DNA from: Mesorhizobium sp. ZC-5
GTDB lineage: Bacteria > Pseudomonadota > Alphaproteobacteria > Rhizobiales > Rhizobiaceae
Assembly (NCBI RefSeq): GCF_025753855.1
Contig: NZ_JAOWPT010000009.1
Location: forward strand, 124,001-188,000
Reading direction: 5' to 3'
Length of the DNA stretch: 64,000 nucleotides
Shown: positions 12,868 through 44,560 of the stretch, piece after piece
How the letters are laid out: each line of letters opens with the position of its first letter
How positions within the stretch are numbered: position 1 is the stretch's first letter
Program-made: the position numbers and the translations under genes
The notes under the pieces: model-generated
What the model was told of the DNA's origin: nothing
Database searches by the model: none
The model's input: the letters and a program-made list of their open reading frames with translations, nothing else

Positions 12868-13824
12868 CTATTTGGCGATCCAGGGATTGGTGGCCCACAG
12901 GTCGCGGAAAATCTTGTCCTGCTCGCGCACGAAGGCGTCGGTCTGCTTTGCATCCATGATGTTCAGCGACAGGGAGCGCTTCTTGGCATCGGCCAGGAAC
13001 GCTGGATCCTTGGCCGCCTGCGCAATGCACTCGGCCAGTTTCGTCTCCACCTCCGCCGGTGCGCCCTTGGGCACGCCGATGATGTGGTCGGAGCCCGAGA
13101 TCAGGTCGAAACCGGCTTCCTTGAAAGTCTGCGTGTCGGGATAGAGCGGATCGCGGCTGTCGGCGGCAATCGCCAGCGGCCGGATCTCGTCGCGGAACTG
13201 CGCCGCTTCGCTGTTCGACATGAAGGCGATTTCCACCTGGCTGCCGAGCAATGCGTTGCGCGAATCCGCGCCGGAGCCGAACGGAATGAAGTTGAAATCG
13301 ACGCCGAGCATCTGTTCGAAACGCAGGCCGCCGAGATGGTCGTCGGCGCCGAGGCCGCCAAGGCCGACATTGATCGGCTGGCCGCTTTCCTTGGCGAATT
13401 TGACGAAATCGGCAAGGGTCTTGAACTGGCTGTCGGGGCGGACCGCGATCAGCGAGCGGACGCCTACGATATTGCCGAGGAAATCGAAAGTGTCGACCGT
13501 GAAGGTCATCTGCTTGCCGATCTGGTTGGTGACGAATTGCGGCATGTTGAGCGAGGCGATGGTGTAGCCGTCGTTCGGCGCCTTCGCCGCCTCGGTCATG
13601 CCGACGGCACCGGTTGCGCCCGGCATGGCGGTGACCACGAAGGTGGCGCCGTTGCCGAGGCATTTTTCGACATAGGGCGCCCAGGTCCGGATGCCGACGT
13701 CGGTGCCGCCGCCGGCGGAGTTCGGGTTGATGAAGGCGATCGGCCGCTCGGGATATTCGGCTGCGGCGGGCGTGGCGGCGACGCTTGCCAGGAGCAGGAG
13801 GGCCAGGCTGGATTTCAATCTCAT
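12868..13824 (-). CDS. TctC/Bug-family tripartite tricarboxylate transporter substrate-binding protein (receptor 1)
   Basis: 318 residues with a Sec signal peptide (MRLKSSLALLLLASVAATPA, cleavage near AAA-EYP). Features shared by all six receptors in this window are EKCLG (Cys 55), GADDHL near residue 165, a second Cys in KLAECIAQAAKDPAF, and a C-terminal DLWATNPW. The two cysteines probably form a disulfide in the periplasm (inference). It heads the minus-strand unit with the NHL, cupin and EamA genes and would capture the substrate of that module. The closest paralogue in the window is 37483-38439 (NPNSAGGGTDVGIRTW is identical in both). Confidence 0.9.
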   Translation of the reverse strand: MRLKSSLALLLLASVAATPAAAEYPERPIAFINPNSAGGGTDVGIRTWAPYVEKCLGNGATFVVTAMPGATGAVGMTEAAKAPNDGYTIASLNMPQFVTNQIGKQMTFTVDTFDFLGNIVGVRSLIAVRPDSQFKTLADFVKFAKESGQPINVGLGGLGADDHLGGLRFEQMLGVDFNFIPFGSGADSRNALLGSQVEIAFMSNSEAAQFRDEIRPLAIAADSRDPLYPDTQTFKEAGFDLISGSDHIIGVPKGAPAEVETKLAECIAQAAKDPAFLADAKKRSLSLNIMDAKQTDAFVREQDKIFRDLWATNPWIAK

Positions 13825-13840
13825 TGTGCGTTTCCCTTTA

Positions 13841-13859
13841 TTGTATACGGTTGTATATA
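13841..13859. promoter_or_regulatory. TTGTATAC and TTGTATATA operator-like half-sites upstream of receptor 1
   Basis: Two direct copies, TTGTATAC (13841-13848) and TTGTATATA (13851-13859), 10 bases apart and only 17 bases from the receptor start codon, overlapping the likely transcription start. They match the recurring TGTATACA motif. The divergent GntR gene begins at 14029. Confidence 0.55.
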
Positions 13860-14028
13860 TCAGACAATCCTAACGGTCGTCTCCATCGTTTGGCAAGATG
13901 GTGTTCGCCGTATTGAGGGCGGTTGTGGCGCTTTTTTCAGCATTTCACGTCAAGTCCGCACCGGCGTTGTGCATGCGAGGATGTCACGCTAAGACTTGAT
14001 CGGATTGTCATACCAAGTCAGGCGAAGA

Positions 14029-14779: not shown

Positions 14780-15553
14780 TCAGATGAGTGCGCGCAGGGC
14801 TTCGGTCCGCTTCTGGCCGGCGTCGACCAGCAGGGTGACGTCGTTGGCGGCGAGGATGAAGCGGTAGCCCATGTCGAAATAGACCTTCAGGTCCTCTGGC
14901 TTGCGCACGCCACCGAGCCCGGCATGGCGGCCATGCTTCTTGCATGCCGCGGCGACGCGCTCGAAAGCCTTGACGACGCGCGGGTTCATGACGTCGCCGG
15001 GAATTCCCATGTCCAGGCAAAGATCGTTGCCGCCGATCATGACGACATCGATGCCCTCCACGGCGGCGATCGCCTCGCAGTTCTCGATCGACGCCTCAGT
15101 TTCGAGCATCACCGCGATCAGGAAATCCTCGTCGAGCTGCTTGGTCAGTTTGCCGACCGGCATGGAGCGGAAGTTGACATGCACCTGCATCGAGGAGATC
15201 GACCGCCGCCCGACCGGCGGATAGCGCAATTGTCGCACCACTTCTCGCGCCTGCTCGACGGTGTCGACATGCGGCATGACGATGCCCTGGGCGCCGCCAT
15301 CGAGGGCGCGCGTCGCCATCCAGTATTGATTTTCGGGAACGCGGACCAGCGGCGCGATGCCGGCATCGAGCGATCCGACGGACAGTTCGCTCGCCGTCTC
15401 GATCGACATGGAATTGTGCTCGAGGTCGATGAACAGCCAGTCGAAGCCGGCCGTCTCGAATATCTTGGCGGTTTCGACGCTGCGGGCCTGCCTGAGCACG
15501 ACGCCCAGCGACAGTTCGTGCTGGCGAAGTTTCTGAAGCGCGATGTTTGCCAT
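14780..15553 (-). CDS. HpcH/HpaI-family class II aldolase (module 1)
   Basis: 257 residues. This family cleaves 4-hydroxy-2-oxo acids to pyruvate and an aldehyde using a divalent metal. Visible hallmarks are FIDLEHNSMS (catalytic His), APLVRVP (Arg), metal-ligand Glu in VMLETEAS and Asp in IGGNDLCLDMG. The start is the ATG at 15553, preceded by GGAGG; the frame extends further upstream without a good site. It follows the IlvD/Edd dehydratase gene by 58 bases. A dehydratase making a 2-keto-3-deoxy acid plus this aldolase would form a non-phosphorylative sugar-acid route (inference). Confidence 0.88.
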   Translation of the reverse strand: MANIALQKLRQHELSLGVVLRQARSVETAKIFETAGFDWLFIDLEHNSMSIETASELSVGSLDAGIAPLVRVPENQYWMATRALDGGAQGIVMPHVDTVEQAREVVRQLRYPPVGRRSISSMQVHVNFRSMPVGKLTKQLDEDFLIAVMLETEASIENCEAIAAVEGIDVVMIGGNDLCLDMGIPGDVMNPRVVKAFERVAAACKKHGRHAGLGGVRKPEDLKVYFDMGYRFILAANDVTLLVDAGQKRTEALRALI

Positions 15554-15611
15554 GTCTTCCTCCGATTGGCGCCTCGTGGAGTCGCGACGAGGCCGGTTCA
15601 TATCGTGATGG

Positions 15612-17327
15612 TCAGCTTTCCTCGTGGGGAAATTCCGCGGTCAGGAAATCCAGATCACAGCCCCGCTCGGCCTGTAGCACATGCCGCTTGAAGAGGCCCA
15701 GCCAGCCACGATCCTTCGCGGCGAGCCGGGGAGGCTTTGCCACACGCCGCCGCGCCAGTTCAGTCTCTTCGACAACAAGGTCGATGCGGCGATCCTTGAC
15801 GCTGATGCGGACAAGGTCGCCATTCCGGACGAGGTCGAGCGGGCCGCCGGCCGCCGCTTCCGGCGAAACGTGCAGCACGATGGTTCCAAAAGCAGTGCCG
15901 CTCATGCGGGCATCCGAGATGCGCAGCATGTCCTTGACGCCACGCCTGGCGAGCTTTGCCGGGATGGGCAGGTAGCCGGCCTCCGGCATTCCGGCGCCGA
16001 TCGGGCCGGCGTTCTTCAGCACCAGCGCGTCGTCCTCGGTCACGTCCAGATCCGGATCGTCGATGCGGGCGGAGAGATCGGCCAGTCCGTCGAAGACGAC
16101 GGCGCGCGCGGTTTTCTCGAACAGACGCTCATCAGCCGCCGCCCGCTTCAGCACCGCACCCCCGGGAGCGAGCGATCCGAACAGTCCGACCAGCCCGCCG
16201 TTTTCGCGCACCGGATTTTCGACCGGCCGGATCACCTCGTCGGCGATCCATGCGTCGTCGGCAGCGGCAAAGTCGCCGAGCGGCGCGCCGGTCACCGTCA
16301 TCGCATCGAGATCGAGCTTTCCGCGCAGCCGGTTCAGCACTGCGCCGACGCCGCCGGCGGCAAAGAAATCCTCCATGTAGCCCTGGCCGGTCGGCTTGAG
16401 GTCGACCAGCACGGGGGTCTCGTCGGAGAACCGGTTCAGCCGCTCCAGGGAAAAGTCCAAACCGAGACGGCCGGCCATGGCGGCGACATGCACGACCGCG
16501 TTGGTCGAACCGCCGATCGCCAGCAGCATCTTCATGGCGTTGTCGAAACTCGCCTGGCTCAGCATGCGGTCGTAGGTGAGGCCGCTCGAAACAAGCTGCA
16601 TCGCCGCCCGCCCGGTTTCCTCGGCGGCGCGCAACCGGTCGGCATGAACGGCCGGGATGGCCGCGGTGCCCGGCAACATCAGGCCCATCGTCTCGCACAG
16701 GATCGCCATGGTGCTGGCCGTGCCCATCACCGAGCAGGTGCCTTCCGTGGTTGCAAGCGTCTGCTCGATCTTTCCGATTTCCTGCTTGTCGACTTCGCCG
16801 GACCTGTATTTTGCCCAGAAGCGGCGGCAGTCGGTGCAGGCGCCGAGCCGCTCGCCCTTGTAGAGCGAGGTCATCATCGGTCCGGTCGCCAGCATGATCG
16901 CCGGCTTGCCAGCCGAGATGGCGCCCATGGCCAGCGCCGGCAGCGTCTTGTCGCAGCCGCCGACCAGGATCACCGCATCCATTGGCTGGGCGCGGATCAT
17001 CTCTTCCGTCGCCATCGCCATCAGATTGCGGAACACCATGCTGGTCGGGTTGAGAAAAACCTCGCCGAGCGACGGCACCGGGAAATCGAGCGGCAGGCCG
17101 CCGGCGGCAAGAACGCCGCGCTTTGCCGCCTCGACCAGCCGCGGCACGCCACGATGGCAATTGTTGAAGTCGCTGGCCGTCCAGGTGATGCCGACCACCG
17201 GCTTGGACAACAGATCACGCGAATAGCCCATCGACTGGGCGAAGGACCGCCGCAGATAGGCTGCAAAGCCTGGATCGCCGTAATTGGTCAATCCCGCGGC
17301 CAGCCCCCTTGGCTTGTCCTCCGCCAT
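15612..17327 (-). CDS. IlvD/Edd-family dehydratase (sugar-acid dehydratase-like)
   Basis: 571 residues, close to the family norm. The three Fe-S cysteines are in FNNCHRGVP, VGGCDKTLP and EGTCSVMGTAS. The pattern is that of the sugar-acid branch (L-arabinonate or D-xylonate dehydratase-like), although IlvD itself (dihydroxy-acid dehydratase) has the same fold. It dehydrates a 2,3-dihydroxy acid to a 2-keto-3-deoxy acid. It lies between the D-2-hydroxyacid dehydrogenase gene (21 bases upstream) and the HpcH aldolase gene, supporting a three-step unit. Confidence 0.9.
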   Translation of the reverse strand: MAEDKPRGLAAGLTNYGDPGFAAYLRRSFAQSMGYSRDLLSKPVVGITWTASDFNNCHRGVPRLVEAAKRGVLAAGGLPLDFPVPSLGEVFLNPTSMVFRNLMAMATEEMIRAQPMDAVILVGGCDKTLPALAMGAISAGKPAIMLATGPMMTSLYKGERLGACTDCRRFWAKYRSGEVDKQEIGKIEQTLATTEGTCSVMGTASTMAILCETMGLMLPGTAAIPAVHADRLRAAEETGRAAMQLVSSGLTYDRMLSQASFDNAMKMLLAIGGSTNAVVHVAAMAGRLGLDFSLERLNRFSDETPVLVDLKPTGQGYMEDFFAAGGVGAVLNRLRGKLDLDAMTVTGAPLGDFAAADDAWIADEVIRPVENPVRENGGLVGLFGSLAPGGAVLKRAAADERLFEKTARAVVFDGLADLSARIDDPDLDVTEDDALVLKNAGPIGAGMPEAGYLPIPAKLARRGVKDMLRISDARMSGTAFGTIVLHVSPEAAAGGPLDLVRNGDLVRISVKDRRIDLVVEETELARRRVAKPPRLAAKDRGWLGLFKRHVLQAERGCDLDFLTAEFPHEES

Positions 17328-17348
17328 GTTCGTCAGAACCTTCCGCGA

Positions 17349-18386
17349 TCAGGCGCGTTGCGCGCCGGCGTCGCTGCCGGCGAACTGGCGGGGCTTGGAA
17401 GGAACCACCACGAGGTCCGACCTCGGGATCGGCTCGCCATTGATGACGCGCTGCATGTTGCGGAAGGCATGCAGGGCCACCGGCGCGACGTTATCGAGCA
17501 CGCTTCCGGCGGTGTGCGGCGTCAGCACGACATTGTCCATCGCGAGCAGCTTGCTCGATGCCGGCAGCGGCTCCGGCTCGAAGGCGTCAAGCCCCGCCGA
17601 CAGAAGCTGGCCGGAATTCAGCGCCGCCACCATGGCCTGCTCGTCGACGACGTCGCCGCGGGCACAGTTGACCAGCACCGAGCCGCGTTTCATGCGGGCG
17701 AGGCTCCTGGCGTTGATGATGTGATGGTTGGCCTCGCCGCCGGGGCAATGCAGGGTGAGGATATCGCTCTCGGCCATCAAGTCGTCGAAAGACACATAGC
17801 GGGCGTTGAGCTTTTTCTCGACTTCTTCGCTGGCCCGGTAGGGGTCATGGTAGATGATCTCCACCTCGAAGCCCTGCAGGCGCTGGGCGACGTTCTTGCC
17901 GATGTTGCCGAAGCCGAGGATGCCGACCTTCTTGCCGGAGAGCTTGCGGCAGAGCGGGCGCAGTTCGGTGTAGATCCATTCGCCCGCCCGCATGCTGCGG
18001 TCGGCCAGCGAAATGCGGCGCAAGGCGCCAAGGATCAGCAGCAAGGTGTGCTCGGCGACGGCGCCGGCATTCGAGCCGGCGGTGATCGCCACCGGGACGC
18101 CCTGCCGCTCGGCGCCTTCCAGGTCGATCTTGTCGACGCCGATGCCCCATTTGTGGACCAGCCGCAGCTTCGGCGATTCCTGGATCAGTTTTTCGGTTAC
18201 CGGCATGGTGACCAGGATGAAATCGCTCTCGTGAACGAGCGGATGCGCGGCCTCTCCCGTCTCGACGCTGAACGTAAGATCGAACTCCGCCGGCGCGACG
18301 TCGCGAATGATCGCCTCGGCTTCGGGGCCGAAGGCGCGGCCCACGCAGGCCACTTTGAATTTGTTGGACGAACCGTTCGACGGCAT
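17349..18386 (-). CDS. D-isomer-specific 2-hydroxyacid dehydrogenase (NAD-dependent)
   Basis: 345 residues. The NAD motif GILGFGNIGKNVA and the catalytic residues Arg (NCARGDVVDE), Glu (DAFEPEP) and His (LTPHTAGS) are all present. It interconverts a 2-hydroxy acid and a 2-oxo acid with NAD(H). It is less similar to the other two such enzymes in the window (34570 and 39320), which form their own pair. It is the first gene of the unit with IlvD/Edd and HpcH genes, divergent from another HpcH aldolase gene across the palindrome at 18405-18423. Confidence 0.9.
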   Translation of the reverse strand: MPSNGSSNKFKVACVGRAFGPEAEAIIRDVAPAEFDLTFSVETGEAAHPLVHESDFILVTMPVTEKLIQESPKLRLVHKWGIGVDKIDLEGAERQGVPVAITAGSNAGAVAEHTLLLILGALRRISLADRSMRAGEWIYTELRPLCRKLSGKKVGILGFGNIGKNVAQRLQGFEVEIIYHDPYRASEEVEKKLNARYVSFDDLMAESDILTLHCPGGEANHHIINARSLARMKRGSVLVNCARGDVVDEQAMVAALNSGQLLSAGLDAFEPEPLPASSKLLAMDNVVLTPHTAGSVLDNVAPVALHAFRNMQRVINGEPIPRSDLVVVPSKPRQFAGSDAGAQRA

Positions 18387-19367: not shown

Positions 19368-20315
19368 CTATTTTAGCCAGCGGTCGCTTTCCCACAGCGC
19401 CTTCAGCATCTCGGATTCCTTGGCCACCCAATCCGCCGTTTCCTTGCCGTTCATCACGTTGAGGAGGAGCGTGCGTTCCTTTGCGACTTTCTGGAATTCC
19501 GGATCGGCGGCGACCTGGGAAAAGCAGGTCGACAGTTTCTCCACGACTTCCGGCGGAGTCGCCGCAGGCGCTCCAAGCACGTGGTTGGAGCCGCCGAAGA
19601 TCTCGTAGCCCTGTTCCTTGAAGGTCGGCACGTCCGGCAGTTCGGGCCGGCGTTCCGGCGAAGCGATGGCCAGGGTCTGCAGCTCGTTCTGGAACTGCGC
19701 GACTTCGGTCATGGAGTTGCCCGACACGTCGACATGGCCCCCGATGACGGCGTTGCGGGATGCCGCGGCATCGGTCATCGGGATGAAGGTGAACTTGGCA
19801 TCGGCCGCCTTCATGAAGGCGAGCATCTTGATGTGGTCGTCGGCGCCGAAGTTCGAGATTCCCATGTTGACCTGGCCGGCCTTGGCTGCCGCCACGACTT
19901 CCTCCAGCGTTTTGTACTTGCCGCCTTTCTTGGCATTGATCGTCACGATCGAGCCGTAGAGGTTGCCGAGGAATGCAAAGCTGTCGAGCTTGTAGGGCGG
20001 GCTTTCCTTGGTGATCGCGCCGGCCGGGAAGTTCGGCACGTTGAGCGCGCCGATCGTATAGCCGTCGGGCTTGGCGTTCGCCAGTTCGGCAAAGCCGAGT
20101 TCACCGCCCGCACCGGGCTTGTTGACGAACACGACCGGCTGTCCGAGGCACTTTTCCATGAACGGACCCCAGGTGCGGGCGCCGACGTCCGACGTGCCGC
20201 CAGGACCGTAGGGGATGATGAATGTAACGGGCTGTTCCGGGTATTCGGCCATTGCCGGCCCCGCCAGCATCGACGTCGCGGTGGCCGCCGCGAGCAGAAT
20301 TTTCAAAGTACGCAT
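19368..20315 (-). CDS. TctC/Bug-family tripartite tricarboxylate transporter substrate-binding protein (receptor 2)
   Basis: 315 residues from ATG 20315, which has GGGAGGAAACTGGAT before it. The signal peptide is MRTLKILLAAATATSMLAGP with cleavage near AMA-EYP. Shared receptor features are EKCLGQP, FGADDHIKML, the second Cys in KLSTCFSQVAADPEF and the C-terminal LWESDRW. The pocket segment NKPGAGGELG differs from that of receptor 1, so a different ligand is likely. It lies 55 bases downstream of the VOC-family gene and probably shares its promoter with the TTGTATACAT site at 20799. Confidence 0.9.
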   Translation of the reverse strand: MRTLKILLAAATATSMLAGPAMAEYPEQPVTFIIPYGPGGTSDVGARTWGPFMEKCLGQPVVFVNKPGAGGELGFAELANAKPDGYTIGALNVPNFPAGAITKESPPYKLDSFAFLGNLYGSIVTINAKKGGKYKTLEEVVAAAKAGQVNMGISNFGADDHIKMLAFMKAADAKFTFIPMTDAAASRNAVIGGHVDVSGNSMTEVAQFQNELQTLAIASPERRPELPDVPTFKEQGYEIFGGSNHVLGAPAATPPEVVEKLSTCFSQVAADPEFQKVAKERTLLLNVMNGKETADWVAKESEMLKALWESDRWLK

Positions 20316-30081: not shown

Positions 30082-30516
30082 ATGGCGCTTAGAGATCCGA
30101 TTGCAGCGATCGTCATCTTCGCGTTCTCGCTGACGGCATTCATCATGGCGCGCGACTACGGCGGCGGGGCAGAACTGTTTCCGCGCGGCATTTCCGCCAT
30201 CATGATGGTCTGCTCGGTGCTGCTGTTCATCAGGGGCATCGTGCGGCCGACCGACGGTGAGCGCATGAATGGCGGCGAACTGTTTCGCGTCGGAACGGTG
30301 ATCGTCGGCACGCTGCTTTACATGATCGGGGTCGACTATCTCGGCTTCGTCACCGCCAGCTTCATCTATGTGCCGGCGACGGCCTATTTCCTCGGCATCC
30401 GCAATCACCTGCTGGTCTGGCTTTCCACGCTCATCTTCGTTTCGCTCGTGGCTTTTCTGTTTCGCAGCGTTTTCCTGGTCCCGCTGCCGCGGGAACTCAT
30501 CTTGACCTTCTTCTGA
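30082..30516 (+). CDS. tctB: Tripartite tricarboxylate transporter small membrane subunit
   Basis: 144 residues from ATG 30082 (GGGAGG at 30069-30074). Four hydrophobic segments fit the TctB topology: AAIVIFAFSLTAFIMA, ISAIMMVCSVLLFI, TVIVGTLLYMIGVDYLGFV and LIFVSLVAFLFRSVFLV. It forms the inner-membrane pair with TctA, 13 bases downstream. The gap of 203 bases after the DUF1932 gene may hold an extra promoter. It is the only TctB seen in the window although six receptors are encoded. Confidence 0.88.
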   Translation: MALRDPIAAIVIFAFSLTAFIMARDYGGGAELFPRGISAIMMVCSVLLFIRGIVRPTDGERMNGGELFRVGTVIVGTLLYMIGVDYLGFVTASFIYVPATAYFLGIRNHLLVWLSTLIFVSLVAFLFRSVFLVPLPRELILTFF

Positions 30517-32187: not shown

Positions 32188-32253
32188 CTTCCAAGCCAGT
32201 CGATTTCGAACAGATTTCCGGCATGCACCGGACACTCATGGAGGATGGACGGA

Positions 32254-32799
32254 ATGAATTCCGCAGACCCGAACGGTCAGCGCGCATGGTATGAGATCGT
32301 GCGCGATGTCCTGAAGGAAAACGACGTCAGGCTCGTCACCTATGTGCCGGACAACGTGCTGTCACCGCTGATGAAGGCGTTGCACGAAGACCCGTTTTTC
32401 ACCACCTTCTGCTGCACGCGCGAGGAAGAGGCGGTGGGCATCGTCACCGGCGCCTGGATGGGCGGCATGCTGGGCGTGGTGCTGATGCAGACCAGCGGTT
32501 TTGCCACGCTGCCCAACGCGCTGGCCTCGCTCGCCGTGCCCTATCAGATACCGCTGCTGATGATCATTTCCGAGCGCGGCTCGCTTGGCGAGTTCAACCT
32601 CGGCCAGGCCATGGTGTGCCGCACGATGCGCCCGTCGCTCGATTCCATGGGCATTGAGCACCACACGCTGCGGCGGCTCGACGAGGTGGCGTTCATCGTC
32701 GACCGCACCATCAGCCAGGCCGTGTCGACGCAGGCTCCCGCGGCGCTGATCCTCAATGCCCTGTTGACCGGCGGCAAGGTCGAGAAGAAGGAGAAATGA
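32254..32799 (+). CDS. ThDP-dependent decarboxylase, alpha (PYR-domain) subunit, second pair
   Basis: 181 residues from ATG 32254, with GGAGG upstream. The activating glutamate lies in CCTREEEAVGIVTGAWMGG. It is the PYR half of a split ThDP enzyme like 6728-7255, and both share the VTYVPD/VSYVPD start and LMQTSG/LMQSSG motifs. The stop overlaps the beta start (ATGA), so synthesis is coupled. The pair would decarboxylate a 2-oxo acid; ComDE sulfopyruvate and Ppd phosphonopyruvate decarboxylases are the best known relatives. Confidence 0.86.
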   Translation: MNSADPNGQRAWYEIVRDVLKENDVRLVTYVPDNVLSPLMKALHEDPFFTTFCCTREEEAVGIVTGAWMGGMLGVVLMQTSGFATLPNALASLAVPYQIPLLMIISERGSLGEFNLGQAMVCRTMRPSLDSMGIEHHTLRRLDEVAFIVDRTISQAVSTQAPAALILNALLTGGKVEKKEK

Positions 32800-33428
32800 C
32801 CATGGCCGGCAACAACAAACAGGCGCAGCACAACCACCGCAAGGTGATGAGCCGGGCCGATCTGAGCAAGCGTCTCGTCGGCAAGCTGAAAAACGACGAG
32901 GCGGTTATCGGCGGCATCGGCTGGACCAATTTCGAACTGTGGGGGGCGGGGTTCCGTCCGCAGAATTTCTACATGCTGGGCTCCATGGGCCTCGCTTTCC
33001 CGATCGCGCACGGCGTCGCCATCGCGCAACCCAACCGGCGCGTCTTTGGCCTCGAAGGCGATGGTTCGCTGCTCATGCAGATCGGCGCGCTCGGCACCAT
33101 CGCCAGCCGTGGGCCGAAAAACCTGGTGATGATCGTCTGGGACAATGGCGCCTACCAGATCACCGGCGGGCAGCCGTCGACATCCGCGACCGTCGCCGAC
33201 CTCGTCGGACTGGCGCGCGCGTCAGGCCTGGAGAAGGCGTTCTGGGCCGACGACGAGGCACATTTCGACAAGCTGATCGACCGTTCGCTGTCGGAGGACG
33301 GCCCGTTCTTCATCGCAGCCAAGATCGACAGCCAGAAGCCCGCCGCCACGACGCATCGCGATCCCGTGCAGATACGCGAGCGTTTCATGCGCGGTCTCGG
33401 CGTGCGCAAGGAGCCGCATGCGCTTTAA
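32796..33428 (+). CDS. ThDP-dependent decarboxylase, beta (PP-domain) subunit, second pair
   Basis: 210 residues. The ThDP motif LEGDGSLLMQIGALGTIA is followed by VWDNGAYQITGG, completing the GDG...N signature. The start at 32796 overlaps the alpha stop; ATG 32802 is also possible. The C-terminus carries a basic tail (RFMRGLGVRKEP). It is convergent, five bases from the flavoprotein gene on the other strand. Confidence 0.86.
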   Translation: MTMAGNNKQAQHNHRKVMSRADLSKRLVGKLKNDEAVIGGIGWTNFELWGAGFRPQNFYMLGSMGLAFPIAHGVAIAQPNRRVFGLEGDGSLLMQIGALGTIASRGPKNLVMIVWDNGAYQITGGQPSTSATVADLVGLARASGLEKAFWADDEAHFDKLIDRSLSEDGPFFIAAKIDSQKPAATTHRDPVQIRERFMRGLGVRKEPHAL

Positions 33429-36493: not shown

Positions 36494-36503
36494 TTGTATG
36501 CAA
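36494..36503. promoter_or_regulatory. TTGTATGCAA operator-like site in divergent promoter
   Basis: One base from the perfect palindrome TTGTATACAA, with another TTGTATT at 36474-36480. It lies in the 164-base gap between the DUF1932 gene (minus) and the HpcH aldolase gene (plus, start 36569). Confidence 0.55.
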
Positions 36504-36568
36504 TGAAGCCATGTCGTGCAAGATGGCCGCTGTCACAAATTTGCGGCCACGTCGGAGGAGGACAAGCC

Positions 36569-37363
36569 ATGCAAACAAATCTGCTCAAGGAACGGCTCAA
36601 ATCCGGCGAGCCGGCCTTCGTCTTTTCCGTCCGCATGGCGCGTACGGTCAACATCGTCTCGCTGGCACAGGCGGTGGGCTATCACGGCATTTATGTGGAC
36701 CTGCAGCACAGTTCGATCTCGATCGATACGGCGGCCCAGATATTCAGTACGGCTCTTCACAGCGAGGTGACGGCCTTCGTTCGTGTTCCGAGCCTCGAAC
36801 CGGGGCTGATTTCACGCGTGCTGGATGCCGGCGCGCAAGGAATCCTTGCGCCCGACATTCGCTCGGCCGAGGAGGCGAAGGCGCTGGTCAAGGCAGCGCT
36901 GATTTCGCCGAAGGGCGATCGCTCGGTCGGTGGCGGCATCCCCAATCCGCGGTTCCAGGGCCTTGCGGGCAACGCCCTGACGACCGCCATCAACGATGCG
37001 ACGCTGCTGATCGCGATGATCGAGACCGAGGCCGGGGTCGAAGCCGCCGCCGACATCATCGGCGTTGACGGCATCGACGCGATCCAGATCGGCAGCAACG
37101 ACCTCACCACATCGATGGGCATTCCCGGCCAATACAAGAACGAACGGGTCAAGGAGGCATATCGCAAGGTGATCGAGGCCTGCAAGGGGGCCGGCAAGCC
37201 GCTGATCATCGGCGGAATCCGCAAAAGCGACGAGTTGGAGCCTTATGTGCGGATGGGTGCGGCTCGCTGCTATTTCACCGGCGCCGACAGCGTTTTCATG
37301 GTCGAGGGCGCCAGGATGTTCCTCGCCGAAGCCAAGACCGCCGACGCGGCGATCACAGGCTGA
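36569..37363 (+). CDS. HpcH/HpaI-family aldolase (module 3)
   Basis: 264 residues from ATG 36569 (GGAGGAGG upstream); the frame extends to 36494 inside the operator site, which argues against the earlier start. Metal ligands are in MIETEAGVEAA and IGSNDLTTSMGIPG; Arg in AFVRVPS. As in 18492-19292 the catalytic histidine is preceded by Gln (YVDLQHSSIS). It is first in a plus-strand run with receptor 3 and a hydratase, a natural uptake, hydration and cleavage sequence. Confidence 0.87.
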   Translation: MQTNLLKERLKSGEPAFVFSVRMARTVNIVSLAQAVGYHGIYVDLQHSSISIDTAAQIFSTALHSEVTAFVRVPSLEPGLISRVLDAGAQGILAPDIRSAEEAKALVKAALISPKGDRSVGGGIPNPRFQGLAGNALTTAINDATLLIAMIETEAGVEAAADIIGVDGIDAIQIGSNDLTTSMGIPGQYKNERVKEAYRKVIEACKGAGKPLIIGGIRKSDELEPYVRMGAARCYFTGADSVFMVEGARMFLAEAKTADAAITG

Positions 37364-37482: not shown

Positions 37483-38439
37483 ATGCGAAACCTGCTGAAA
37501 TTGGCTGGCGCGATGGCGCTTGGCCTGGTCTCGACCGCGGCTTTTGCGGAATATCCCGAACGCCCGATCATCGTCATCAATCCCAATTCCGCCGGCGGCG
37601 GCACCGATGTCGGCATTCGCACCTGGCAGCCCTACGTCGAGGCCTGCCTGGGCAACGGCGCCGCGCTGGTTCCGACCGCGATGCCGGGCGCTGCCTCGGC
37701 CGTCGGCATCGAGGCGCTGCACAAGGCGGCACCCGACGGCTACACGATCGGCATGGCGAACATGCCGAACCTGGTCACCAACAAGCTGTCGAAGTCCGAG
37801 CCGTCGATCGCCGACGACTTCGTCTGGATCGGCAATGTCATTGGCGTTCGGTCCACGCTCAATGTCCAGGCGGACAGCAAGTTCAAATCGCTGAAGGAAG
37901 CGATCGACCACATCAAGGCGAGCAGCGGCCCCATCAATGTCGGCATGGGCGGCATCGGCGCGGACGACCATCTGGTCGGCCTGCAGTTCGAAAAGCTCGT
38001 CGGCGTCAAGCTTAACTTCATCCCGTTCGGCTCCGGTGCGGATTCGCGCAACGCGCTGCTCGGCGGCCAGGTCGAATTCGCCTTCATGTCGAATGTCGAG
38101 GCGGCGGGTTTTCGCGAGGAAGTGAGGCCGCTTGCGGTCGCCGGCGAACAGCGCACGGATCTGTTTCCCGATACCCCGACCTTCACGGAAGAAGGGCTGG
38201 AACTGGTCGGCGGATCGACCCATGTGATCGGTGCGCCAAAGGGCTTCCCCGAGGAAGCGCTCGCCAAATGGCGCGAATGCATCCAGGTTGCCGCCAAGGA
38301 TCCGAAATTCCTCGAGGATGCCAAGAAGCGCTCGCTCTCGCTGAACGTCATGACCGGCGAGGAAACCGAAGCCTTCATCCGCAGCCAGGCAAAACAGTTG
38401 GAAGAACTCTGGGCCAGCGACCCATGGATCAAGCCGTGA
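37483..38439 (+). CDS. TctC/Bug-family tripartite tricarboxylate transporter substrate-binding protein (receptor 3)
   Basis: 318 residues with signal peptide MRNLLKLAGAMALGLVSTAA and cleavage near AFA-EYP. It has EACLGNG, GADDHLVGLQFEKL, the second Cys in WRECIQVAAKDPKF and the C-terminal LWASDPW. It is closest to receptor 1: INPNSAGGGTDVGIRTW and NFIPFGSGADSRNALLG occur in both, so the two may bind related ligands. It lies between the HpcH aldolase and hydratase genes, which suggests that its ligand feeds that aldolase. Confidence 0.9.
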   Translation: MRNLLKLAGAMALGLVSTAAFAEYPERPIIVINPNSAGGGTDVGIRTWQPYVEACLGNGAALVPTAMPGAASAVGIEALHKAAPDGYTIGMANMPNLVTNKLSKSEPSIADDFVWIGNVIGVRSTLNVQADSKFKSLKEAIDHIKASSGPINVGMGGIGADDHLVGLQFEKLVGVKLNFIPFGSGADSRNALLGGQVEFAFMSNVEAAGFREEVRPLAVAGEQRTDLFPDTPTFTEEGLELVGGSTHVIGAPKGFPEEALAKWRECIQVAAKDPKFLEDAKKRSLSLNVMTGEETEAFIRSQAKQLEELWASDPWIKP

Positions 38440-38473
38440 TCGCATAATCCAGGCATTCGCCTCGGCGGATATG

Positions 38474-38495
38474 TCGCCGGCATTCCTGCCGGCGA
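38474..38495. terminator. Intercistronic hairpin between receptor 3 and hydratase genes
   Basis: TCGCCGGC (38474-38481) pairs with GCCGGCGA (38488-38495) around ATTCCT. It may reduce read-through or protect the receptor transcript so that receptor is made in excess. No U tract follows. Confidence 0.45.
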
Positions 38496-38530
38496 GGCCC
38501 TTCCGCATATTTCGCAATCCAGGAGACGCC

Positions 38531-39313
38531 ATGAAGATCGATCTTGAAAACCTCGTGGACCGGATCGCCGACCGTGTCTCCGGCCGTGCGCCCTGGAAGG
38601 ATATCATGGAGGACGAGCCGGGATTGGTCGAAGCGGAGGCCTACAGCGTCCAGGCCGGCCTGATGCGCCGCCGCATCGCGGAAGGCGAAACCGTCATCGG
38701 CTACAAGGCGGCCTATACCAGCGCCGCCATCCAGGCCCAGCGCGGCAATGGCGGGCCGATCGCCGGCGCCATCCTGCGCTCGGCGCATCTGCCGGAGAGC
38801 GCTCCGATCGCCATCGTGCCGAACAGCCGCAATGCGGTCGAGCCGGAGGTCGCCATCCTGCTTGGAGCCGACCTGCCGGGCCCTCGTGTCACGCCGCTCG
38901 ACGTGCTGCGCGCCACCGAAGCGCTGCTTCCGGCGATCGAGGTGGCGGTCGGGGCGCCAGGCAATGTCGAACGCACCCGCCACATGGTGATCGCCACCCA
39001 CAAGACGGCGGGCAGCATCGTCGTCGGCGGGCCGGGCCTGTCGCCGGCGGGCATTGATCTGCGCGTCGAGGGCTGCGTGATGTCGATCAACGGCGAGGTC
39101 CGGGGTTCGGCCACCGGCGTCGAAGTGATGGGCGATCCCTACAACGCCGCCGCCTTCATCGCCAACACCGTGCTGGCGAATGGCGACATGCTGCGCGCCG
39201 GGATGATCCTGATGACCGGGTCGATCATCGCCGCCATCCCGATCTCGGCGGGCGACGATGTGCGGGTGGATTTCACCCGGCTCGGCAGCGTCGGCATCAG
39301 GTTCGCTGCGTAG
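38531..39313 (+). CDS. 2-keto-4-pentenoate hydratase/4-oxalocrotonate decarboxylase family protein (MhpD-like)
   Basis: 260 residues from ATG 38531 (AGGAGACGCC before it). The family adds water to 2-hydroxypentadienoate-type compounds or decarboxylates 4-oxalocrotonate. Metal ligands are expected in NAVEPEVAILLGADL; other hallmarks are VIGYKAAYTS near residue 56 and the C-terminal GDDVRVDFTRLGSVGIRF. It follows receptor 3 and an HpcH aldolase gene; hydratase plus aldolase is the order of steps in meta-cleavage pathways, though no ring-cleavage dioxygenase gene was seen. Confidence 0.86.
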   Translation: MKIDLENLVDRIADRVSGRAPWKDIMEDEPGLVEAEAYSVQAGLMRRRIAEGETVIGYKAAYTSAAIQAQRGNGGPIAGAILRSAHLPESAPIAIVPNSRNAVEPEVAILLGADLPGPRVTPLDVLRATEALLPAIEVAVGAPGNVERTRHMVIATHKTAGSIVVGGPGLSPAGIDLRVEGCVMSINGEVRGSATGVEVMGDPYNAAAFIANTVLANGDMLRAGMILMTGSIIAAIPISAGDDVRVDFTRLGSVGIRFAA

Positions 39314-39319
39314 GCCCGG

Positions 39320-40255
39320 TCAGTCGACGCGGTGCAGCACCTCGCCGCCTGAAAAATGCGCCTTGAAATTGCGCGAGATCTGGCGACGGGCCGCGACGAC
39401 GGCTTCCGGCGAGCGGCCGCCTATGTGTGGGCTGACGATCAGGTTCGGCGCGCCGGTAAGCGATGCCGGGAGAACCGGTTCGCCGGCCCAGACGTCGATG
39501 CCGGCCCCGGCGATGGTCTTGTCGTGCAGGGCCTCGACCAGCGCGTCCGTGTCCACGACGCTGCCGCGCCCGACATTGATCAGCAGGCCGGAAGGCCCGA
39601 GCGCCGCCAACACTTCGCGTCCGACGATGCCCCTCGTTTCCGGACCGCCGGGGCAGGAGACGACGAGAATGTCGGAGGCTTCGGCGAGTTCCAGCGGCGA
39701 CGCATAATACCGGTAGGAGACGCCGTCCTTCGGCTTGCGGTTATGGTAGCCGATGGTTGCCTCGAAGGCCTCGGCGCGCTTGGCGATGGCGAGACCGACT
39801 TCGCCCAGGCCGATGATGCCGACGCGTTTTTCGTAGATCAGCGGGCGTGGCGCGCGCGCCTCTTCCCAGACGCCGTCACGGGTGGCGCGGTCGTTGGCGG
39901 GGATATCGCGCAGCACCGCAAGAATGAGCGCCAGCGCCTGCTCGGCCACCGAAAAGGAGTTGGTGCCGGCATTGTTGGCGACCACGATGCCTTTTTCATG
40001 CACCGCGGTCATGTCGATCTGCTCGAAGCCGACGCCGACGGTATGGATGATCTCGAGCTTCGGCATGGCGCGGATCTGCTCTCCGGTCAGGCCGATCGAA
40101 CCATTGGTCACCACCGCCCGTGTCCGCGGACCAAAGTCCCTAATCGCCTGTTCGAGCAGTTCCAGGGACGGCGCATAGTGAACGACGAAATCCTCCTCGA
40201 GCAGCGCGATGCTCTCCTTGGGAAAGGGGACACGCACGATGACTTCAGGCTTCAT
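39320..40255 (-). CDS. D-isomer-specific 2-hydroxyacid dehydrogenase (paralogue of 34570-35502)
   Basis: 311 residues. The NAD motif is IGLGEVGLAIAKRA; catalytic Arg in NVGRGSVVDT, Glu in DVWAGEP and His in SPHIGGRSPE. The N-terminus MKPEVIVRVPFP mirrors that of 34570-35502. It is the last gene of a minus-strand run with receptors 4, 5 and 6 and an enolase-superfamily gene. It would convert the 2-oxo acid or 2-hydroxy acid of this module. Confidence 0.88.
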   Translation of the reverse strand: MKPEVIVRVPFPKESIALLEEDFVVHYAPSLELLEQAIRDFGPRTRAVVTNGSIGLTGEQIRAMPKLEIIHTVGVGFEQIDMTAVHEKGIVVANNAGTNSFSVAEQALALILAVLRDIPANDRATRDGVWEEARAPRPLIYEKRVGIIGLGEVGLAIAKRAEAFEATIGYHNRKPKDGVSYRYYASPLELAEASDILVVSCPGGPETRGIVGREVLAALGPSGLLINVGRGSVVDTDALVEALHDKTIAGAGIDVWAGEPVLPASLTGAPNLIVSPHIGGRSPEAVVAARRQISRNFKAHFSGGEVLHRVD

Positions 40256-40297: not shown

Positions 40298-41254
40298 CTA
40301 TTTGACCCAGGGTTCCTTCGCCCACATCGATGTCAGTGCCGCATCCGTCTCGTCGACGAAATTGGTTGTCTCGTCGGCCGTCATCGGGAGCAGGGGCATC
40401 TTGCGGGTTTCCGCGTCGGCGATGAACGCCTTGTCCGCCGCGATCGTCGTCACGCAGTTGCGCCATTTCTCCAGCACTTCGGCGGGGACGCCCTTGGGTG
40501 CCGCGATCAGCAGCCGCGAGCCCATGATGATGTCGTGGCCTAGCTCCCGGAACGTCGGCGTGTCGGGCAGCATCGGGCTGCGCTCCTCGCGCGCGATGGC
40601 AAGCGGCCGTATGTCCGTGATGTCGCGGCCGAACTCGCCGCTCGACATCAGCGCCAGGTCGACATGGCCGCCAAGCAGGGCGAGGCGCGTTTCGGCGCCG
40701 CCGCCGAACGGGATGAGGTTGAGCTTTATGCCCGACAGTTCGGCGAGCCGCAGCCCGGCGAGATGGTCGTCATTGCCGACGCCGCCGATGCCGACATTGA
40801 GCGGCGTGCCGCTTGTCTTGGCCTTGGCGACGAAATCCGCGAAGCTCTTCAACTCGCTCTCGGTGCGGACGGTGAGCGTCGAACTCGCCCCGCTGAGGTT
40901 GCCGATGTAGTCGAAGCTGTCCTTCGTCCACTTCGCGTCCTTGCCGAAACGCTGGCTGATCAGGTCGGGAGCGGTGGTCTGGCCCATCGTGTAGCCGTCT
41001 GGCGCTGCAAGCGCGAGGTCGGTCATGGCGATACTGCCGCCGGCACCCGGCCGCATTTCGATGACGATCGAAGCGCCATTGCCCAGGCATTTTTCCATAT
41101 AGGGCGTCCAGGTGCGCAAGGCGATGTCGCTGGCGCCGCCGGCCTTGTAGCCGAGCAGGTAGGTGATCGGCTTCTCGGGATATTCCGCATGCGCCGCGCC
41201 GGCCGCCAGAGCGAGCGACGCGGTCAAGGACAACAACAAAGCTGTGGCTTTCAT
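40298..41254 (-). CDS. TctC/Bug-family tripartite tricarboxylate transporter substrate-binding protein (receptor 4)
   Basis: 318 residues from ATG 41254 (GGGAGGAGC upstream). The signal peptide MKATALLLSLTASLALAAG is cleaved near AHA-EYP. It has EKCLGNG, VGNDDHLAGLRLAEL (Asn replaces Ala before the DDH), the second Cys in WRNCVTTIAADKAF and the C-terminal MWAKEPW. The pocket start LLGYKAGGASDIALRTW differs from the others, so the ligand is probably different. It follows the enolase-superfamily gene by 71 bases. Confidence 0.9.
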   Translation of the reverse strand: MKATALLLSLTASLALAAGAAHAEYPEKPITYLLGYKAGGASDIALRTWTPYMEKCLGNGASIVIEMRPGAGGSIAMTDLALAAPDGYTMGQTTAPDLISQRFGKDAKWTKDSFDYIGNLSGASSTLTVRTESELKSFADFVAKAKTSGTPLNVGIGGVGNDDHLAGLRLAELSGIKLNLIPFGGGAETRLALLGGHVDLALMSSGEFGRDITDIRPLAIAREERSPMLPDTPTFRELGHDIIMGSRLLIAAPKGVPAEVLEKWRNCVTTIAADKAFIADAETRKMPLLPMTADETTNFVDETDAALTSMWAKEPWVK

Positions 41255-41325: not shown

Positions 41326-42510
41326 TCAGTGCTTCGTGGCGACGGGCGGGTGGGCTTTCAGGGCCTCTTCGTTGACGTCGGCGCCCCAGCCCGGTCCGGC
41401 CGGCAGACGCATATGGCCGTCCTCGATGACCGGCGCCTGGGTGATCAGGTCGTTGGTCCACGGCACCTGTACGACGTCCATCTCCATGACGCGGAAATTC
41501 GGCACCGCCGCGCAGAAATGGGCACTCATCAGCGTTGCGATCGGACCGCAGAAATTGTGCGTGGCGACGTTGATCTCGAATGCGTCGGCCAGCGCTGCCA
41601 TGCGCATCGATTCGAGAATGCCGTTCCACGGCACGTCGATGATGGCGACATCCACGGCCTCCTGTTCGAGATAAGGGCGAAGCTGCCTGCAGCCGCTCAG
41701 CGTCTCACAGGAGGCAATCGGGATGCGGCTGCCGCGACGCACCTGCGCCACCGCCGCTGCGCTGAAATTGTCGATCTCCAGCCAGTCGAGATCGAGCGGC
41801 TGCAGCGCGCGGGCCATGCGCAGATAGCCTTCCGGGCGGAAGTTGAAGTTGATGTCGAGCTTGATGCCGATGTCCGCCCCGGCACCCTCGCGGAAGGCGG
41901 TCATCTGGTCGACCGCCGCGGCGATGGCGGCGCGGGTCGGGTTGCGGTCCGGATCGCCGGACCCGCCGGCGAAACCGGGCCGGTACATGTAGGGCTCGGC
42001 CTTGTCGAACATCATCAGGTTGGTCTTCAGTGCGTGGTAGCCGGATTCCCTGACCTTGCGTCCCAGCGCCTTCACGTCGTCGAGCGAGGTGATGCGCGGC
42101 ACGCCGAGGTCTTTCCAGTTGGTGACGTGGTAGGAGCCGCAATGCGACCAGTACATGCGGATGCGGTCGCGGATCATGCCGCCGATCAGTTCGTAGGCGG
42201 GAACGTCGAGCGACTTCGCCTTGATGTCGACGAGGGCGTTTTCGAGTGCACCGATGGAGCGCGCGACAGCGCCGAAAGGCACGCCCCACGATGCCCGGCG
42301 GAGGCGGTCGACCAGCGGCTGGACGCGGCGCGGGTCCTCGCCGATCAACTGCTGGCCGAGATGCCGCACCAGCGGCGACAGCACGCCGTTGATATGGTTC
42401 TCGGGGAATTCGGCCCAGCCGACCAGTCCGGCATCGGTGCTGACCTTCAGGAACGAGAGGTTGCGCCAGCCGGCGCTGCAATAAAGTGTTTCGACGCTGC
42501 TGATTTTCAT
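41326..42510 (-). CDS. Enolase-superfamily (mandelate racemase-like) protein with variant lysine motif
   Basis: 394 residues from ATG 42510. The barrel has metal ligands D219 (KLDINF), E245 (WLEIDN) and E269 (SCETLSG), D292 (IIDVPW) and H318 (ATHNF). At the usual K-x-K position the sequence is LKTNLM, so only the first lysine (K162) is kept and the second is Asn. That variant may change the stereochemistry or reaction (dehydration versus racemisation). It lies between two receptor genes on the minus strand, so one of these receptors may deliver its substrate. Confidence 0.85.
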   Translation of the reverse strand: MKISSVETLYCSAGWRNLSFLKVSTDAGLVGWAEFPENHINGVLSPLVRHLGQQLIGEDPRRVQPLVDRLRRASWGVPFGAVARSIGALENALVDIKAKSLDVPAYELIGGMIRDRIRMYWSHCGSYHVTNWKDLGVPRITSLDDVKALGRKVRESGYHALKTNLMMFDKAEPYMYRPGFAGGSGDPDRNPTRAAIAAAVDQMTAFREGAGADIGIKLDINFNFRPEGYLRMARALQPLDLDWLEIDNFSAAAVAQVRRGSRIPIASCETLSGCRQLRPYLEQEAVDVAIIDVPWNGILESMRMAALADAFEINVATHNFCGPIATLMSAHFCAAVPNFRVMEMDVVQVPWTNDLITQAPVIEDGHMRLPAGPGWGADVNEEALKAHPPVATKH

Positions 42511-42545
42511 GGCCTGCCGGGTGATGACATTGAGACAAGTGGGCA

Positions 42546-42573: not shown

Positions 42574-42578
42574 GAAGG

Positions 42579-43520
42579 CTATTTCCAGGGCTTGCTGTCC
42601 CAGATCCTTTTCAATGCGGTGTACTCGCCCATGGCGAAGGCTTCCGTCTCGGCAGCGGTCATCGGCGTGAAGATGAAGTTTCTTTCCTCGATCGCCTTCC
42701 GGTAGTCGGGGTTCTTGCCGACCTCCTGGAAGCACTTGTCGAGCTTGTCCTTGACGTCTGCCGGCAACCCGTTGGGCGCCCCCATCAGGAACGTGTTGCC
42801 GCCGGTGATGTCGTAGCCGAGTTCCTTCAGGGTCGGCACGTCGGGCAGGCCTGAAAACCGCTCCGCTCCCGCCACTACCAATGTTTCGAGCTGGTCCTTG
42901 AAGTTGGCGCTCTCGGTTACCGACAGGCCGAGTATATCGACGTGGCCGCCCATCACCGCGTTTCTCGCAAGCGGCGATTCCACCATCGGGATGAATTCGA
43001 ATTGCGCGCCGCTGGCTTCCATCAGGCGGAGCAGGACGAGGTGGTCGTCGGCGCCGGCCTGGGTGATGGCTGCCTGGACGGGAGCGGCCTTCGCGGCATC
43101 GAGCAGATCCTGGATCGTCTTGAACTTGCCGCCCTTGCGCGCGCTGATGGCAACGCGCGAACCGACCAGGTTCGACAAATAGTCGAAACTGTCCATGGTG
43201 TAGCGGGGCGGGTCGTTTGCGATGGTGCCGACCGGCAGATTGGGCGTCAGCAGGCTGCCGAGCGTATAGCCGTCGGGTGCAGCCGCGGCGATGTCGATCA
43301 TGCCGAGCACGCCGCCGGCGCCGGGCTTGTCGATGACGACGATCTCGCCGCCCAGGCATTTCTCCAGGAACGGTTCGGCGATGCGCACGCCGACATCGGC
43401 GCCGCCGCCCGGCGCGTACGGCACGATGTAGGTGATTACCCGGTCCGGATACTCCGCGAAGGCCGCCGTTGCCCACACCGTCGCGACAGCCGCCGCCAGC
43501 AATCCGATGCCACGCCTCAT
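42579..43520 (-). CDS. TctC/Bug-family tripartite tricarboxylate transporter substrate-binding protein (receptor 5)
   Basis: 313 residues with signal peptide MRRGIGLLAAAVATVWATA and cleavage near AFA-EYP. It carries EKCLGGE, QAGADDHLVLLRLMEA, the second Cys in KLDKCFQEVGKNPDY and the C-terminal IWDSKPW. The pocket segment DKPGAGGVLG groups it with receptors 2 and 6. It directly follows receptor 6 on the minus strand (89-base gap). Confidence 0.9.
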   Translation of the reverse strand: MRRGIGLLAAAVATVWATAAFAEYPDRVITYIVPYAPGGGADVGVRIAEPFLEKCLGGEIVVIDKPGAGGVLGMIDIAAAAPDGYTLGSLLTPNLPVGTIANDPPRYTMDSFDYLSNLVGSRVAISARKGGKFKTIQDLLDAAKAAPVQAAITQAGADDHLVLLRLMEASGAQFEFIPMVESPLARNAVMGGHVDILGLSVTESANFKDQLETLVVAGAERFSGLPDVPTLKELGYDITGGNTFLMGAPNGLPADVKDKLDKCFQEVGKNPDYRKAIEERNFIFTPMTAAETEAFAMGEYTALKRIWDSKPWK

Positions 43521-43609
43521 GATATGTCGAACTCCCAGTTCCGCCTGATGAAGTCGCTCGAAATGCCGGAAGACCCGCCTGCCGGTTCAACCGGCTCGGC
43601 GTCGTTCCG

Positions 43610-44560
43610 CTATTGCCAGGGATCGCTTTCCCAGAGCGCGCGCAGATCCGCTTCCTCCTTGGCGATGAAGTCCTTCACCTCCTTGTCGCTCATGATGTTG
43701 AGGCTGACAGACCGCTTGTTCGCTTCGTCGAGGAAGGCCGGGTCTTTCGCCACCTGCGCGATGCAGTCGGCATATTTGGCGCGGATATCCTCCGGCGTTC
43801 CGGCCCTGATGCCGAGCACATGGTTGGAGCCCGCGACGAGGTCGTAGCCGAGTTCACGGAATGTCGGGACATCGGGCAGCGATGGCATGCGTTCGGCGGA
43901 TGCCACCGCGAGCACAGTCAGCTTGTCCATGAAGGGCCCGGTCTCGGTGTTCGACAGGCTGCCGACCTGGACGTGACCGCCCATGATGGCATTGCGCACG
44001 TTGCCGGCGCTTTCGAGCGGCAGCGTGGTGAATTTCAGCCCGGCCATCTTGGCAAACCGCAGCGCCATCAAGTGATCGTCGGCGCCGAGCGACGAGGTGC
44101 CGAGATTCATCGGCGTTGGCGATTCCTTCGCGGCCTTGATCAGATCATCGACCGTTTTGATCGGGCTTTCCTTGGCGACGGTCAGCGTCACATTGGTGCC
44201 GACGATGTTGCCGACCAGCTCGAACTGGTCGAGCTTGTAGCTGGTGCCGGTTATCGCGCCGATCTCGAAGTTCGGTGCGTTCAGCGTCGAGATCATGTAG
44301 CCGTCGGGCTGTGAGGTGGCGAGTTCGGTAAAGCCGAGCTGACCGCTGGCGCCGGGCTTGTTGACGACAACCATGGTCGCGCCGTTGCCGATGCATTTTT
44401 CCAGATAGGGCGCATAGGTGCGCACCGCGACGTCGGTGCCGCCGCCGGCGCCGAACGGCACGAGAAAGGTGATGGGGCGGTCGGGAAAGTCCGCGGCGGC
44501 GGTGCCGATGCCAGCCGCGACGACCAGCGCTGCCCCGAATAACGTGGTTCTGAAGCGCAT
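43610..44560 (-). CDS. TctC/Bug-family tripartite tricarboxylate transporter substrate-binding protein (receptor 6)
   Basis: 316 residues from ATG 44560 (GGGAGGAAGAAA upstream). The signal peptide is MRFRTTLFGAALVVAAGIGT with cleavage near AAA-DFP. It has EKCIGNG, LGADDHLMALRFAKM, the second Cys in KYADCIAQVAKDPAF and the C-terminal LWESDPW. It is first in the minus-strand run and is divergent from an enolase-superfamily gene (44764) across two TGTATAC-like sites. NKPGASGQLG groups it with receptors 2 and 5. Confidence 0.9.
   Translation of the reverse strand: MRFRTTLFGAALVVAAGIGTAAADFPDRPITFLVPFGAGGGTDVAVRTYAPYLEKCIGNGATMVVVNKPGASGQLGFTELATSQPDGYMISTLNAPNFEIGAITGTSYKLDQFELVGNIVGTNVTLTVAKESPIKTVDDLIKAAKESPTPMNLGTSSLGADDHLMALRFAKMAGLKFTTLPLESAGNVRNAIMGGHVQVGSLSNTETGPFMDKLTVLAVASAERMPSLPDVPTFRELGYDLVAGSNHVLGIRAGTPEDIRAKYADCIAQVAKDPAFLDEANKRSVSLNIMSDKEVKDFIAKEEADLRALWESDPWQ

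Follow-up and report, generated by a model that had tools for sequence, protein, structure and literature searches.

Six receptor genes and one permease pair

The stretch analyzed here, 64,000 nucleotides of Mesorhizobium sp. ZC-5 (contig C9, positions 124001-188000, GC content 63.5%; hereafter the window), belongs to a 6.34 Mb genome in 68 contigs with a completeness of 100, and it encodes parts of a tripartite tricarboxylate transporter (TTT). Six genes for TctC (Bug-type) receptors, here C1 to C6, share the window with a single pair of genes for the membrane subunits TctB and TctA, an inventory proposed in an earlier note made from the letters alone and borne out by scores above the cut-offs of PF03401, PF07331 and PF01970. 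Each of the six receptors clears the PF03401 threshold (27 bits) by a wide margin in the Pfam scan of the window's open reading frames (ORFs; 108-123.4 bits), and the same six score 107.9-124.7 bits in the genome-wide PF03401 search. Judged by eye, their N-termini resemble Sec signals whose end lies near A-x-A, ahead of E/D-Y/F-P, and for C2, C4 and C6 such signal-like N-termini place the likely starts inside the longest ORFs, at ends 20315, 41254 and 44560.

12868..13824, minus strand: TctC receptor C1 (PF03401 112.5 bits), first gene of the run C1-NHL-cupin-EamA
19368..20315, minus strand: TctC receptor C2 (PF03401 122.3 bits for the longer ORF), with a 77% identical ortholog in Chelativorans
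37483..38439, plus strand: TctC receptor C3 (PF03401 108 bits), with a 79% identical ortholog in Chelativorans
40298..41254, minus strand: TctC receptor C4 (PF03401 123.4 bits for the longer ORF)
42579..43520, minus strand: TctC receptor C5 (PF03401 114.1 bits), with a 77% identical ortholog in Chelativorans
43610..44560, minus strand: TctC receptor C6 (PF03401 113 bits for the longer ORF), with a 75% identical ortholog in Chelativorans
30055..30516 (the start may be 30082), plus strand: small membrane subunit TctB (PF07331 59.7 bits, cut-off 29.1)
30530..32050, plus strand: large membrane subunit TctA, the only one in the window (PF01970 460.3 bits, cut-off 28.9)

TctB and TctA are adjacent, as a complete TTT permease requires, and whole-genome searches found no other match to either subunit on this contig than the pair at 30055-32050. 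The receptors are 37-59% identical to one another and at most 31% identical to the other 13 TctC proteins of the genome, and in a tree with those proteins they form a single clade with support of 100/100 (most trees here are quick ones with support from the Shimodaira-Hasegawa-like approximate likelihood ratio test only). The single clade and the family scores rule out chance similarity, and the level of identity, together with orthologs in another genome, rules out recent tandem copies. All six receptors have Cys55, Cys266, Asp161-Asp162-His163, Trp310 and Trp315 (C1 numbering, which is the same in C3), while neither a cysteine in columns 55 or 266 nor the Asp161-Asp162 pair occurs in any of the 13 remaining TctC proteins. 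The two cysteines may form a disulfide.

Across the genome, 11 TctA, 11 TctB and 19 TctC proteins exceed the curated cut-offs. This count, a check that the earlier note had suggested, did not turn up five further tctAB pairs linked to the window receptors; ten other pairs exist, each with a different TctC nearby. By coordinates, nine of the ten TctA genes outside the window are no more than about 1.7 kb from a TctC gene; for the tenth (C10:169843) the closest one lies 3.6 kb away, and two others are within 10 kb. None of these TctC proteins comes from the window clade. The ratio of TctC to TctA is thus 6:1 in the window, 13:10 outside it and 19:11 overall, and the local excess is real. A large genome-wide surplus of the kind seen in orphan Bug expansions is absent (19 TctC against 11 TctA), and the excess is mostly local.

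A second, smaller many-to-one set was noticed on contig C10, where three TctC genes (160803, 163910 and 165400) lie near one TctA-TctB pair at 169843-171598 (G000:C10:160803-171598, L153). Two of the three share 50% identity. A TctC at C5:432508-433323 (L018, L154), on a contig without TctA, has two of the C10 receptors as its nearest kin.

Receptor and permease lineages in other genomes

Relatives of the six receptors are rare. Among 60 related genomes searched besides the window's own, only one, G041, reached the score of the strict receptor clade (359.8 bits; next best 236.5), and the clade is missing from G001 and G002, two genomes of the same genus. A survey of 395 genomes (own included) drawn from a larger family, with the best five candidates per genome scored, found no strict-clade receptor in the other 394 (best 335.3 bits) and receptors of a wider clade in 12 of them. 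When a species-genome collection was scanned with degenerate patterns, Chelativorans multitrophicus DSM 9103 ranked first at 62% identity among the best 80 of 221 places. In all, clade receptors were found in three further genomes, Chelativorans (five), G041 (one) and Propylenella (one), each clustered with a TctA of the window type. The resulting strict clade of 13 receptors from four genomes has a support of 100; Cys55, Cys266, Asp162-His163 and the last two tryptophans are invariant in all 13, and position 161 is Asp in 12 and Glu in one.

The closest counterpart of the window is the Chelativorans cluster, in which five clade receptors (430-492 bits) lie within about 31 kb together with one window-type TctA. 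This TctA is 67% identical to that of the window, where the next best in the same genome reaches 37-38%, and the accompanying TctB is 43% identical. The cluster is syntenic in blocks, with the gene order tctB-tctA-comD-comE retained, remaining matched genes 68-91% identical, and, as in the window, no receptor gene adjacent to tctBA. C2, C3, C5 and C6 each have an ortholog there (support 99-100), that of C2 standing ahead of HADH1-HpcH1-NHL-EamA; C1 and C4 have none within the 57 kb Chelativorans stretch, and the fifth Chelativorans receptor is a different one. Once the clade is set aside, Chelativorans has 11 TctC proteins (Pfam) against 11 other TctA, 10 of the 11 within 0.7 kb of each other and one pair 15 kb apart; these TctA were counted from matches to that of the window with E no higher than 1e-40, the weakest being 1e-70, in a genome listed with no completeness value. 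As no 16S sequence turned up in a search of five genomes, we count the window genome and that of Chelativorans as two genomes, not two genera.

The permease follows the same pattern of descent. In G041 the sole clade receptor adjoins the sole window-type TctA (54% identical to that of the window), and a clade with support of 100, matching the receptor clade, unites this TctA with those of Chelativorans and the window; the TctA trees exclude the Propylenella fragment, which is too short. The next wider TctA clade holds 19 rows (support 100), and at nine of these 19 loci at least two clade receptors lie in the cluster. The order receptor-TctA-receptor recurs in two Salinicola genomes, a metagenome-assembled genome of Methylocystaceae, G341, G376 and G400, and the two receptors of such loci fall into separate clades (support 99 and 98), each drawn from several genomes; the duplication therefore predates these loci, with a single permease kept. 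In this wider tree 11 far TctC rows of 53, and a second Salinicola locus (L130), were left out. Among the 12 family genomes with wider-clade receptors, eight have a wider-clade TctA beside the receptor.

Gene neighborhoods, binding pockets and ligand class

The earlier note had placed the six receptors in different operons, which stands in part. Gene order suggests about four transcription units rather than six, because C4, C5 and C6 (40298, 42579 and 43610) sit in one co-directional run: on the minus strand, C6, C5, an enzyme of the MR/MLE (mandelate racemase/muconate lactonizing enzyme) group, C4 and a hydroxyacid dehydrogenase follow each other with gaps of 42-89 bases by coordinates. C3 is flanked by an aldolase and a hydratase-like gene, C2 is solitary and followed by a gene on the opposite strand, and C1 heads its own run. 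The enzymes around the receptors and the permease, which include a split thiamine pyrophosphate (TPP) enzyme, are as follows.

14780..18386, minus strand: HpcH aldolase, IlvD-type dehydratase and 2-hydroxyacid dehydrogenase, near C1 and C2
32146..32799, plus strand: N-terminal half of a TPP enzyme, sulfopyruvate-decarboxylase-alpha-like (108.5 bits, under the equivalog cut-off of 147.95)
32796..33428, plus strand: C-terminal half of a TPP enzyme, sulfopyruvate-decarboxylase-beta-like (TIGR03846 150.6 bits, under the cut-off of 221.5)
36494..37363, plus strand: HpcH/HpaI aldolase upstream of C3 (79% in Chelativorans)
38471..39313, plus strand: 2-keto-4-pentenoate hydratase / 2-oxo-3-hexenedioate decarboxylase-like, after C3 (TIGR03218 144.4 bits, under the cut-off of 350.55)
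39320..40255, minus strand: D-2-hydroxyacid dehydrogenase, last in the run C6-C5-MLE-C4 (74% in Chelativorans)
41326..42510, minus strand: MR/MLE enolase-superfamily enzyme between C5 and C4 (PF13378 149.4 bits, PF02746 47.9 bits)
44764..45873, plus strand: MR/MLE enolase-superfamily enzyme, divergent from C6 (88% in Chelativorans)

The hydratase-like gene at 38471..39313 has no Pfam match and is 74% identical to its Chelativorans counterpart. An ORF at 41705-42538 that might be taken for an unknown gene is a shadow frame of the true MR/MLE gene at 41326-42510, and the equivalent position in Chelativorans is occupied by an ORF weakly similar to MR/MLE enzymes. The genes listed for the 57 kb Chelativorans stretch include none that corresponds to the IlvD gene. 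The split TPP decarboxylase (32146-33428) lies directly 3' of tctBA in both genomes; its second half, 84% identical in Chelativorans, scores 346.8 bits with NF004813, an unnamed family whose cut-off of 240 bits it thus passes. Sulfolactate as a substrate is only a lead, with both TPP halves and an Ldh_2 protein under their NCBIfam equivalog cut-offs.

An AlphaFold2 model of C3 (36 sequences; mean predicted local distance difference test score 90.8) has the two-domain Venus-flytrap fold of Bug proteins, as judged on this predicted model. In Foldseek its first 17 rows are TctC/Bug-type chains (E 5.4e-26 to 4.7e-19), led by 4x9t, a ligand-free TctC from Polaromonas. The solved structure that best matches a profile of the six receptors by sequence is 25HK (169.7 bits), the alginate-oligosaccharide receptor TTT-C of Vibrio sp. 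C42; a sequence search of the PDB with the window TctA found no chain at an E value of 0.01 or below.

Pocket residues reported in the available text on TphC (PMC8556258) and on Vibrio TTT-C (PMC13390454) were mapped by hand onto C3 via alignments and motif spacing, and other mappings could shift the test. We scored 288 columns for identity within all four window/Chelativorans ortholog pairs combined with at least three residues among the four paralogs. Such columns make up 6/18 of the TphC-mapped pocket against 30/270 elsewhere (Fisher p = 0.015; 9/287 circular shifts reach this value), and 7/24 against 29/264 for the union of both pocket sets (p = 0.019; 8/287 shifts). Four of the seven union-pocket columns lie in loop 183-186, and orthologs have an identity of 0.92 within the union pocket and 0.78 elsewhere. 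By this computation, under one of the two mappings, the pockets appear to be kept between orthologs and to differ between paralogs.

At the buried-carboxylate site described for TphC (T155, with S156 beside it), manual mapping places the Asp/Glu-Asp of the clade, a pair that would be expected to disfavor carboxylates by repulsion and to accommodate hydroxyl or amino groups. The enzymes neighboring the receptors comprise HpcH/HpaI aldolases, an IlvD-type dehydratase, MR/MLE enzymes, hydroxyacid dehydrogenases and a keto-acid hydratase-like protein. The clade residues at the carboxylate site, these neighbors and the match to 25HK together point to acid sugars or hydroxy acids as the ligand class.

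Proposed sharing of one permease and the surroundings of the island

We consider it likely that the six paralogs serve different (hydroxy-)carboxylates and all hand them to the one TctB-TctA permease of their island. In such a system the receptors would capture ligands in the periplasm, probably acid sugars or related hydroxy acids, and each of them would deliver to the single TctBA, which we propose as their shared permease. The receptor genes are grouped with catabolic enzymes, away from the permease, so that the substrate range would shift by gain or loss of a receptor-plus-enzyme cassette as the permease stays single. While the one-clade relationship, the counts, the co-occurrence and the cluster shared by two genomes are direct results of computation, docking of all six receptors on the window TctBA, transport and the class of ligand are our inference. 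The earlier note had weighed a permease accepting several receptors against receptors acting as sensors, and the former is the better backed of the two because of the one receptor clade, the one co-occurring TctA lineage, the 5:1 cluster of Chelativorans and the repeated 2:1 loci; it is unproven, and its exclusivity is weakened by changes of partner in the wider family.

Those changes are among several observations that weigh against a single shared permease. No receptor gene directly adjoins tctBA, the nearest (37483) being more than 5 kb away. In four of the 12 family genomes with wider-clade receptors (G135, G169, G222 and G336; L148, L149, L150 and L152), the receptor (275-299 bits) clusters with a canonical-type TctA that is 34-36% identical to that of the window and, in G169, about 4 kb off. 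Wider-family receptors thus seem to have changed their permease partner, on three occasions according to a tree of moderate support if that tree holds, and a window receptor could therefore use another of the ten TctA proteins, three of which (L001, L002 and L006) have reciprocal best hits of at least 62% in Chelativorans. Propylenella binzhouense L72 has one intact clade receptor, yet only the C-terminal half of a window-type TctA is recognizable beside it (residues 267-506; L125, ~7833-9867), in a genome with 31 TctA matches in all. The pocket mapped from Vibrio TTT-C gives no significant enrichment (3/11 against 33/277, p = 0.15, 48/287 shifts), and C1 and C3 differ in only 3/24 mapped pocket columns (92, 205 and 246), so that these two may share a ligand, hence perhaps five specificities and not six.

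This last similarity also speaks for a largely redundant receptor set, in which the six would share a ligand, or bind very similar ligands or isomers of a single compound, and be set apart by their expression rather than by specificity. The apparent co-transcription of C4, C5 and C6 from coordinates and the cysteines, Asp162-His163 and last two tryptophans common to all 13 strict-clade receptors fit such redundancy as well, which we nevertheless regard as unlikely: loop 182-186 varies among C2, C3, C5 and C6 and is constant within each ortholog pair, and the enzymes beside the receptors differ. Slightly less probable still is that some of the six feed other TctBA pairs, which would make the island a store of receptors rather than a system with one permease. 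The genome does offer ten other pairs, and the four family genomes with a different TctA type indicate that partners can change, but each of the ten TctA already has near it a TctC from outside the window clade, Chelativorans stands at 11:11 once the clade is removed, and the window-type TctA is the only TctA in the conserved cluster of both genomes. That some receptors are sensors reporting to a signaling protein, by analogy with the published role of Bordetella BctC and its kinase BctE (PMC5812351, PMC5994714, as far as the available text goes), is very doubtful, as no histidine kinase or response regulator occurs among the Pfam-scanned ORFs of the window (some small ORFs were unscanned).

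The island may be organized around one TctBA as a hub, with receptor-plus-enzyme cassettes that come and go and five or six acid-sugar specificities entering through one membrane gate, a reading to which we give about even chances. In the window, C1 and the IlvD enzyme are a candidate cassette; in Chelativorans another is the fifth receptor, whose neighborhood includes a further, diverged set of NHL, DUF1932 and split TPP genes (L122-L123 / G061:C1:489121-494729), which gives the impression that an entire cassette was duplicated.

The relevant section of a 2018 review credits Antoine et al. 2003, and after them Hosaka et al. 2013, with the proposal that one TctAB can serve several TctC proteins, and the same section states that no evidence for the mechanism was yet available (PMC5812351); no later test was noticed in the open-licence literature searched. 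Orphan receptor excess has been published for Bordetella and for the alphaproteobacterium Rhodoplanes, the latter with 434 TctC and 9 TctA in the portions available (PMC5994714, PMC5812351), which leaves little of the earlier suggestion that such an expansion is less usual in alphaproteobacteria. Like the window, these expansions combine many TctC with few TctA/TctB and receptor genes that mostly lie apart from those of the permease; the window differs in holding a small set, in one island and of one clade, tied by co-occurrence to one TctA lineage. In the terephthalate uptake system TphC/TpiBA of Comamonas, the receptor likewise lies in a catabolic operon and the TctBA-type permease elsewhere, but the text at hand describes one receptor (PMC8556258), whereas in the window six paralogs and a single permease share one island; the C3 model is 25-26% identical to the TphC structures. 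Vibrio TTT-C provides a TTT receptor for sugar-acid ligands and, as the available text describes it, belongs to a three-component TTT in an alginate locus (PMC13390454), unlike the window receptors; by eye, its aligned positions show neither the DDH motif nor the two cysteines. The SlcHFG system links a TTT permease to sulfolactate metabolism (PMC5812351, in part), and the window's tctBA is followed by sulfopyruvate-decarboxylase-like halves, but here the TPP subunits and the Ldh_2 protein fall below the cut-offs for sulfopyruvate decarboxylase and L-sulfolactate dehydrogenase. Most likely the window is a case of the arrangement long proposed for this transporter family, with a family of receptors that goes with a single permease lineage and is kept, through four orthologous receptors, in two genomes. 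Genomes with hundreds of orphan receptors make that proposal hard to test; here the question narrows to six receptors, one permease, four ortholog pairs and a named collection strain, and is directly testable.

Other genes of the window include regulators, namely two GntR/FCD proteins, a TetR protein and one ORF with sub-threshold winged-helix matches. Its start (300-6549) holds more catabolic-looking genes (MR/MLE, DUF6772, PrpF, SDR, NHL), and the island may therefore begin before the coordinates given here; an ARAGORN call of tRNA-Asp at 3367-3464 falls within the PrpF-family gene 2731-3915 and is probably false. A plasmid origin is unsupported: a 24.5 kb stretch matches 24 plasmid records, none covering more than 80% of the query, with the 10 listed ones covering 2-4% at 75-76% identity and one unlisted record at 80-90%, and TctA matches in 15 plasmid records all remain below 60%. 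At 50390-54880, HlyD-type and AcrB-type efflux genes adjoin the island.

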